This document shows positions 35,086-37,641 of a DNA stretch of 45,312 nt, piece by piece (positions within the stretch are counted from its first letter, which is position 1; each line of letters opens with the position of its first letter). The translations under genes and the position numbers were made by a program. The notes under the pieces are model-generated. The model was not told where the DNA came from. It did no database searches and worked only from the letters and a program-made list of their open reading frames with translations. Source of the stretch: Opitutia bacterium Tous-C8FEB (GTDB lineage Bacteria > Verrucomicrobiota > Verrucomicrobiia > Opitutales > Opitutaceae); contig NEUZ01000005.1 of NCBI GenBank assembly GCA_002304435.1, positions 1 through 45,312 on the forward strand, written 5' to 3'.

Positions 35086-35718
35086 TCAGGAGTTGTCGGA
35101 CTCCTGCTTGCAGATCCAGCACTTGACGCCGATCTTGCCATAGACGGTGAGGGCCTCGGCGAAGCCGTAATCGATGTTCTCGCGGAGGGTATGCAGGGGC
35201 ACGCGGCCCTTGCGCTGCCACTCCCGGCGGGCAATATCCGCCCCACCGAGGCGGCCCGAGCACTGGATCCGGATGCCCTCGGCGCCCAAGGCCATCGCCA
35301 TCTCCACGGCCTTCTTCATCGCGCGGCGGAAGGCGATGCGGCGCTCCAGCTGCAGAGCCACGTTCTCGGCCACCAGCGCGGCTTCGATCTCGGGCTTCTT
35401 GACCTCCTGGATGTCCAGCAGGATCTCCTTGCCCGTCAGCTTGGCCAGCTCCTCCTTGATCTTCTCGATCTCCTGACCCTTGCGGCCGATGACGATGCCA
35501 GGCCGGGCGGTGTAGATCTTAACCCGCACCCGGTTCGAGGCGCGTTCAATGAAGATGCGCGGCACGGAAGCCTGCTTCAGCTTCTCCATCAGCTTGGAGC
35601 GGATCAGTTGATCCTCGGCCAGCAACCGGCCGAAATCCTTCTTGCCCGCGTACCAGCGGGACTGCCAGTTGCGGCGGACGGCGAGGCGAAAACCAACGGG
35701 ATTTGTCTTTTGGCCCAT
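35086..35718 (-). CDS. rpsC: 30S ribosomal protein S3
   Basis: [26 protein letters not shown] region [26 protein letters not shown]. Confidence 0.97.
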
Positions 35719-35730
35719 GGGAAAAGGGTA

Positions 35731-36075
35731 TTAGGCGTTGTCGGTGCCGTCCGAGAGGATGATGCGGATGTGGGACATCTTCTTGCGCCGGGGCATCGCG
35801 GTGCCGCGCGCCCCCGCCTTGAAGCGCTTCAGCACGGGACCGTTCTCGATCACGGCGCTGCGCACGGTCAGACTGTCGGCGGAAAGATTCCGGTTGTTCT
35901 CGGCGTTCGCGATCGCGCTCTTGAGCGTCTTCGCGATCAGGCGCGCGGACTTGCGCGGCACGAGACTCAGGAACTCGACCGCCTCCGTGGCCGGACGGCC
36001 TTGGATGGTGCGGGCGACTTCGCGCATCTTTTTGGGCGACATGCGCGCGTAGCGAGTAAGGGCTTGAACTTCCAT
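35731..36075 (-). CDS. rplV: 50S ribosomal protein L22
   Basis: MEVQALTRYARMSPKKMREVARTIQGRPATEAVEFLSLVPRKSARLIAKTLKSAIANAENN. Confidence 0.96.
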   Translation of the reverse strand: MEVQALTRYARMSPKKMREVARTIQGRPATEAVEFLSLVPRKSARLIAKTLKSAIANAENNRNLSADSLTVRSAVIENGPVLKRFKAGARGTAMPRRKKMSHIRIILSDGTDNA

Positions 36076-36090
36076 GGTAGCTTGAGGATT

Positions 36091-36126
36091 CCGGCGGAGC
36101 CGCCGGCGATAACGGCGCGAGGCGCC
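36091..36126 (-). other. Two tandem hairpins upstream of rplV
   Basis: CCGGCG-GAGC-CGCCGG (36091-36106) and GGCGC-GAG-GCGCC (36114-36126). Confidence 0.5.
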
Positions 36127-36152
36127 TTACCCTTTGGTTGGTCGGATCTAGG

Positions 36153-36470
36153 TTAGGATTTAAGGAGCTTTAGGAGGGCGACGTCCCCGGGGCGGACCGC
36201 TTGGTCCCCCGCCAGACGGGTGATGAGGGCGGCACTGACCGCGGGGCGCAGCGCGACGAGGATGACCTCGCCGATCTCGCGCCCATCGCGGACCAAGCGG
36301 CAGAGCATTCCCTGCCGCAGGCCACCCTCGAACCCGGCATCGAGGACCACGAGGTCCGCGACGCTCCCCGCCTCCACCGCCAGCACGGTGCCAGCACGGG
36401 GTGCCGCCGCGGCCGCGTGAGCCGCGACCGGGAGCAGACCCGCCAGGAAGAGAGGAAGCAGACGACGCAT
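36153..36470 (-). CDS. Small secreted/periplasmic hypothetical protein embedded in the S10 operon
   Basis: 105 aa; signal peptide MRRLLPLFLAGLLPVAAHAAAA; LVVLDAGFEGGLRQGMLCRLVRDGREIGEVILVALRPAVSAALIT; 7 bp after the rpsS stop. Confidence 0.75.
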   Translation of the reverse strand: MRRLLPLFLAGLLPVAAHAAAAAPRAGTVLAVEAGSVADLVVLDAGFEGGLRQGMLCRLVRDGREIGEVILVALRPAVSAALITRLAGDQAVRPGDVALLKLLKS

Positions 36471-36477
36471 CGCGGGA

Positions 36478-36753
36478 TTAGATTTCCTTGCGGGTCATTC
36501 CGCCGTGCGACTTGAACACGCGAGTCGGGGCGAACTCCCCGAGCTTGTGCCCGACCATATTCTCGGTGACGTACACCGCGACGAAGGCCTTGCCGTTGTG
36601 CACGCTGAACGTTTGACCGACGAAGTCGGGGGTGATGGTCGACCGGCGGGACCAGGTCTGGATCGGCTTCTTATTACCGGCCTTGACCGCCTTCTCGATC
36701 TTCTCGAGCAGGTGGTAGTCGACAAAGAAGCCCTTCTTGATGGAACGTGCCAT
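36478..36753 (-). CDS. rpsS: 30S ribosomal protein S19
   Basis: [22 protein letters not shown]...[46 protein letters not shown]. Confidence 0.97.
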
Positions 36754-36771
36754 GGTGCGAGGGGGGCTGGA

Positions 36772-37641
36772 TTACTTCTGACCGCGCGGCTTGCGGCCGT
36801 TGTGGTGGACGATGATCTGGGCGTTCGACGGCTTGGAGCGGCGCCGGGTCGGGAAACCCTTCGCCAGCTGGCCCCAGGGGGAAACCAGCTGCTGACGGCC
36901 GCCACCGCCCTTGGACTTGCCTTGGCCACCACCGTTGGGGTGATCGACCGGATTCATCGCCATACCGCGGACCGTCGGGCGGATGCCGAGCCAGCGGGAG
37001 CGGCCAGCCTTGCCGAGGGACTGCTGGTTATGGTCGCCGTTGCCCACCTCGCCAATCGTGGCGCGGCACTTGGCGTTAACGTAGCGGAGCTCGCCCGAGG
37101 GCATCTTGAGCGTCGCCTGCCCGTCCTCGATCGCCACCAGCTCCAAGCTGGCCCCAGCGCTGCGGGCGATCTGCGCGCCGCGACCCGGCACGAGCTCGAC
37201 GCAATGCAGGCGCGTCGACGGCGGGATGATCGCGAGGGGGAAATTGTTGCCGACCGTGTAGTCGTTGGTCGTGGCCTTGTTGGAGGTGATGATCGTGTCG
37301 CCAACCTTGAGCCCCTTCGGAGCCAAAATGTAGGCCTTCACGCCATCGTTATAGGAGATCAGGGCGAGGTTGGCCGAGCGGTTCGGATCGTACTCGAGGG
37401 CCTGGACCCGGGCCGGCTGGTCGAGCCGGGAACGCTTGAAGTCAACGATCCGGTACAGCTGCTTGTGACCGCCGCCGCGATGGCGGGAGGTCACGCGCCC
37501 GTAGACGTTACGGCCGCCGGACTTGTGCTTTGACTCGGTGAGGCCGCGCTCGGGGCGCTTGCGGGAGAGCTGGCCCGAGGTCTTATTCAGGGCCGTGAAG
37601 CGGCCGGCGGGCGTCAGCGGACGAAAGGAATGGATAGGCAT
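36772..37641 (-). CDS. rplB: 50S ribosomal protein L2
   Basis: GRVTSRHRGGGHKQLYRIVDF; RSRWLGIRPTVRGMAMNPVDHPNGGGQGKS. Confidence 0.97.
   Translation of the reverse strand: MPIHSFRPLTPAGRFTALNKTSGQLSRKRPERGLTESKHKSGGRNVYGRVTSRHRGGGHKQLYRIVDFKRSRLDQPARVQALEYDPNRSANLALISYNDGVKAYILAPKGLKVGDTIITSNKATTNDYTVGNNFPLAIIPPSTRLHCVELVPGRGAQIARSAGASLELVAIEDGQATLKMPSGELRYVNAKCRATIGEVGNGDHNQQSLGKAGRSRWLGIRPTVRGMAMNPVDHPNGGGQGKSKGGGGRQQLVSPWGQLAKGFPTRRRSKPSNAQIIVHHNGRKPRGQK

Follow-up and report, generated by a model that had tools for sequence, protein, structure and literature searches.

Here we describe a gene for a small, predicted exported envelope protein that lies directly before rplV in the S10 operon of Opitutia bacterium Tous-C8FEB, and whose place there is kept across most of the phylum Verrucomicrobiota. 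The S10 operon is one of the most conserved gene orders of bacteria. It is unexpected that an exported-protein gene should persist within it throughout a phylum, and stay beside rplV after rpsS has departed. We consider it likely, with a probability of roughly 60%, that the ORF is a short form, specific to its order, of an ancient exported family that became fixed in the operon before rplV, and that its product would act as an envelope scaffold or adaptor made together with the ribosomal proteins. In the open literature searched, we found no account of a gene inserted between these two positions, rpsS and rplV, in this phylum.

The gene and its operon

The window, which is the whole stretch of 45,312 nucleotides that was analysed (contig NEUZ01000005.1), carries the S10 operon on its minus strand in the order rplB-rpsS-ORF-rplV-rpsC:

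36772..37641, minus strand: rplB (uL2)
36478..36753, minus strand: rpsS (uS19), the upstream neighbour, assigned from its sequence and the conserved S10 order
36153..36470, minus strand: the ORF, with an ATG start, between rpsS and rplV, for a predicted exported protein of 105 aa (short form), backed by homologues and dN/dS
35731..36075, minus strand: rplV (uL22), the downstream neighbour, which opens the second half of the operon
35086..35718, minus strand: rpsC (uS3)

A sequence-only reading of the window had drawn attention to the ORF as 105 codons on the strand of the ribosomal genes, starting 7 nt past the rpsS stop and dividing rpsS from rplV, and these coordinates proved exact. The ORF and rplV are 77 nt apart. 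A promoter and terminator scan of 35600-36900, which is a weak kind of evidence, returned no promoter-like sites, and all terminator-like sites that it found lay on the plus strand, so that it gives no hint of an operon break here. Since the ORF is co-directional with the ribosomal genes and close to them, it is likely to be co-transcribed with the S10 ribosomal genes.

Conservation, loss, and selection within the order

Homologues were matched in 39 genomes when 57 relatives were searched at a loose threshold. The 29 strongest relatives, which span the genus and family of the window and nine further families of the order, were taken for locus comparison. All 29 carry a co-directional homologue in the rpsS-rplV interval, so that ten families of the order are represented; for one of them (L018) this holds for the rplV side only, as its contig stops before rpsS and the rplV flank alone is visible. 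One extra locus from a separate collection (L031) duplicates the contig of L005, and a wider profile search added one further family of the order with the gene. The sequence-only reading had conceded that its case would fall if no relative carried an orthologue at this position, and the presence of one in all 29 relatives clearly settles that point in its favor.

It had also proposed that rpsS-rplV spacing be compared across Verrucomicrobiota. In ORF-less genomes of the same family or order the interval is just 8-218 nt, with no comparable ORF. These short intervals suggest that the gene has been cleanly lost several times. Such loss is seen in several members of the family and genus of the window and leaves ribosomal gene order undisturbed. 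The gene is thus not universally essential.

Purifying selection on the ORF is strong, and dN/dS points to the mature protein as its target: among close relatives, the value is 0-0.21 for the mature part and 0.08-0.37 for the whole gene. In addition, the pairwise identity of the domain follows that of four ribosomal proteins encoded beside it (r = 0.87, 27 loci, 351 pairs), and none of 2000 Mantel shuffles gave a correlation as high. The gene behaves as an old resident of the operon, vertically inherited with the ribosomal proteins. A chance ORF is ruled out by conservation at this position together with dN/dS, and a recent insertion or mobile gene by vertical inheritance together with the spread across the phylum described below.

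Distribution across the phylum and attachment to rplV

A first profile, built from 27 sequences, matched 143 of 291 genomes of the phylum. A second domain profile (A5), based on a varied set of 35 sequences, found matches in 217 of the 291 at a threshold of E <= 0.001, some of them perhaps via paralogues alone. The gene is phylum-wide, and not the oddity of a single lineage. In this regard the sequence-only reading, which took the co-expression of an exported protein with ribosomal proteins as a sign of a link between growth rate and an envelope function, understated the case. It was right that a real, selected gene for a predicted exported protein lies in the S10 operon, in the direction of the ribosomal genes and close to them, but it missed the spread across the phylum, the coiled-coil forms of other lineages, the attachment to rplV, and the structured RNA in the spacer, all described below.

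Placement was judged from the position of each match relative to the positions of rpsS and rplV in the same genome. Among the 150 matches listed (of the 217 genomes), 110 lie next to rpsS, rplV, or both in the same direction, 34 are without placement, and six lie away from both genes, all of them in genus g78. Also among the matches listed are 16 genomes in which the gene is directly before rplV although rpsS is far off or on another contig. In two of these genomes (G061 and G199), rpsS and rplV lie on one contig, 0.66 and 0.9 Mb apart, which is a true split of the operon. Because the gene is found beside rplV even where rpsS has moved, it belongs to rplV more than to rpsS.

It could be argued that the position is simply frozen, that is, that the protein has an ordinary envelope function with no relation to ribosomes, and the gene stays where it is only for the strong, constitutive expression that the operon provides and for the cost of rearranging essential genes. 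The clean losses, which do not upset ribosomal gene order in the several genomes concerned, would agree with this, as would the relocation in genus g78 without a common neighbour. However, the 16 genomes that keep the gene beside rplV after the separation of rpsS and rplV, and vertical co-inheritance over the entire phylum, argue against it, and we regard this explanation as possible though somewhat doubtful. An exported family fixed before rplV, which is probably made together with the ribosomal proteins and would act as an envelope scaffold or adaptor, is the reading that we prefer.

The relocated genes of genus g78 (L175-L180) lie outside the ribosomal operon, at sites that differ between species. 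Their contexts have no shared neighbour, and such varied surroundings do not point to a functional partner. Paralogues that likewise join a membrane anchor and a coiled coil to a domain of this kind were seen in another family of the class (L115, L116, and L118). They occur alone or as tandem copies, close to dnaX or to a gene for an ABC transporter, and no partner of known relevance was found beside them. A separate observation concerns the operon itself. Several lineages of the phylum have it split after rpsS, and there the gene for the predicted exported protein stands first in the part that begins with rplV (L125-L136; G061, G199, G068, G338, G280, G295, and others).

Protein architecture and relation to known families

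The 105-aa protein consists of two parts:

36405..36470, minus strand: predicted signal peptide, about residues 1-22, MRRLLPLFLAGLLPVAAHAAAA, recognized by hydropathy and its n-region, with a predicted cleavage point
36156..36404, minus strand: mature C-terminal beta domain, about residues 23-105 (~80 residues), backed by alignments A1, A2, and A5

The signal peptide proposed in the sequence-only reading recurs in every sequence tested. By a simple hydropathy measure the N-terminal hydrophobic signal is over threshold in 36 of 36 sequences, with K/R ahead of it in 35. The same three alignments give a phylum-wide pattern for the domain, ..DLVVL..Gf..GlR.GM...V.R....e...V..R...AA.I......pGD....K. 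That the mature part is beta-rich agrees with the predicted strands, but AlphaFold models of one or two sequences were of low confidence (pLDDT 56 and 58), and a Foldseek search of the PDB with these models gave nothing at E <= 0.001, only noise.

Forms outside the order of the window are longer, mostly 164-368 aa. They combine a signal peptide, membrane anchor, or lipobox with a coiled coil that precedes the same beta domain at the C-terminus. Their genes, too, separate rpsS from rplV or, where rpsS lies elsewhere, directly precede rplV. The 105-aa form is an order-specific version that lacks the coiled coil. The long form may well be ancestral because it is so widely spread, an argument from distribution and not from a rooted tree. 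Lipobox-like N-terminal ends are present in L096 and L098. In alignment A1, a single cysteine, Cys57 of the window protein (in GMVCR, about 36300-36302), is kept in most members of the order and not in other lineages, which is puzzling for a predicted periplasmic protein.

Pfam and NCBIfam have no family for the window protein, and the long forms matched only generic coiled-coil models and, below threshold, FlgT_C. The search of the mature domain recommended in the sequence-only reading yielded weak profile similarity to TsaP, MreC, and FlgT_C, but no family over its curated cut-off. Identity with a known family was rejected, as the matches in Pfam, NCBIfam, and the PDB are all sub-threshold.

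TsaP, which is associated with the type IV pilus secretin (PDB 3jc8/3jc9, 6ve2), stands alone among PDB families in giving a profile match below E 0.05 (3jc8, E 0.004-0.011 over about 40 residues). Similar to the predicted ORF product, it is exported and has a small C-terminal beta domain. TsaP differs in having an N-terminal LysM domain and in acting with pilus secretins, whereas the ORF has ribosomal neighbours and Pfam scans detected no LysM domain in the window protein or in six long forms. FlgT_C (PF16538) is likewise a periplasmic beta domain, of about 75 residues. It was matched weakly by 5 of 30 members (best E 0.0021), and on the long forms it scored 12.8-14.2 bits against a gathering cut-off of 27. 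None of 59 phylum genomes had FlgT_C over the curated cut-off and, in contrast to FlgT_C, the ORF has no flagellar context.

MreC (PF04085) resembles the long forms in having a membrane anchor or signal, a coiled coil, and a C-terminal beta part in the same order. The family might therefore be an MreC-like scaffold of cell-wall elongation, with a coiled coil and a periplasmic beta domain, and weak matches lean the same way (PDB 9dvb, E 0.36; Pfam PF04085, E 0.0075, in one member of A2). We find this improbable. The domain of the ORF family is shorter, about half as large as the barrel core of MreC, and no member of the family reached the PF04085 cut-off, which was passed only by canonical MreC at other loci. 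Such loci were found in 10 of 12 genomes tested, including carriers of this gene, and replacement of MreC by this protein is ruled out by them.

A possible envelope function

Under the preferred reading of a scaffold or adaptor, the function that we infer would begin with the N-terminal signal, whose sequence pattern suggests passage of the protein through the inner membrane. In the periplasm, the small beta domain would dock onto another envelope component or scaffold it, in a manner comparable to the beta domains of FlgT_C, TsaP, and MreC. The coiled coil present in most other lineages would space the domain from the membrane, and members of the window's order have the domain without such a spacer. 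Transcription with the ribosomal proteins would render the amount of protein proportional to growth. A supply of this kind would fit a structural envelope component that is needed in step with cell expansion.

The place of the gene points to a possible link of ribosome making with envelope building in this phylum. The gene could provide a handle on how envelope building scales with growth in a large and poorly understood group of bacteria, and it is directly testable in cultured members.

An RNA element before rplV

The spacer directly upstream of rplV holds one further feature:

36087..36135, minus strand: two-hairpin RNA core, AAAGGGYAG-hairpin-CTRTCGCC-hairpin-GGAATC, identified by covariation

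The covariance-model match, at 36073-36145, extends to the rplV start codon. The conserved motif is located in the ORF-rplV spacer or, in ORF-less relatives, in the rpsS-rplV spacer. Alignment of 32 spacers (A4) defined two helices with 15 pairs, 10 of which show compensatory changes on both sides. With these partners 93.1% of cells are paired, compared to 34-58% with slid partners, and the covariation score was reached in 0 of 500 shuffles. The covariance model (R1) identified the element in 29 genomes of the window's family, with one copy each and always directly before rplV, and did not find it in other families of the order. Two extra weak matches (E 0.02 and 0.08) are probably due to chance.

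SecM is an exported leader protein that sets the translation of secA. In the window's family, where an ORF for a predicted exported protein immediately precedes rplV and the spacer holds a structured RNA, a similar arrangement comes to mind, in which translation and export of the ORF would set translation of rplV and the spacer RNA would be the switch. This is very unlikely. The RNA element is retained in ORF-less relatives (L062-L069 and L071), and in other families the element is missing although the ORF is there, with ORF-rplV spacers of 3-46 nt. As the RNA is found both with and without the ORF, the two features are independent and the RNA is a separate finding. Moreover, conservation covers the whole domain and not a C-terminal arrest motif, Trp and Pro residues of the SecM type are absent from the family alignment, and dN/dS indicates selection on the mature protein.

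The element resembles r-leaders in being a small covarying structure directly before a ribosomal-protein gene, present as a single copy per genome. It differs from them in its absence from the entries of Rfam 15, a search of which gave no credible match. A survey of 20 r-leaders does not mention the phylum or describe the element, and the only motif there that names rplV is an alphaproteobacterial rplB-rpsS-rplV-rpsC leader (PMC7247131). As a check for rRNA mimicry by the element, a simple motif search did not find its conserved motifs in a 5.4-kb stretch that holds most of the 23S rRNA.

Taken together with the gene, the element allows a broader and more tentative proposal, namely that an undescribed phylum-wide exported family couples envelope growth to ribosome synthesis via the S10 operon, and that, in the window's family, an unlisted RNA leader ahead of rplV exerts separate control over the operon's second half. 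As a whole, we rate this as rather unlikely. On its own, the element is probably a leader controlling rplV, to judge from its structure and position, and it is a new candidate for the control of ribosomal-protein synthesis. The GG of GGAATC, which may serve as an initiation signal of rplV, is paired within the second helix, and this pairing makes control of rplV translation the likely role of the element.
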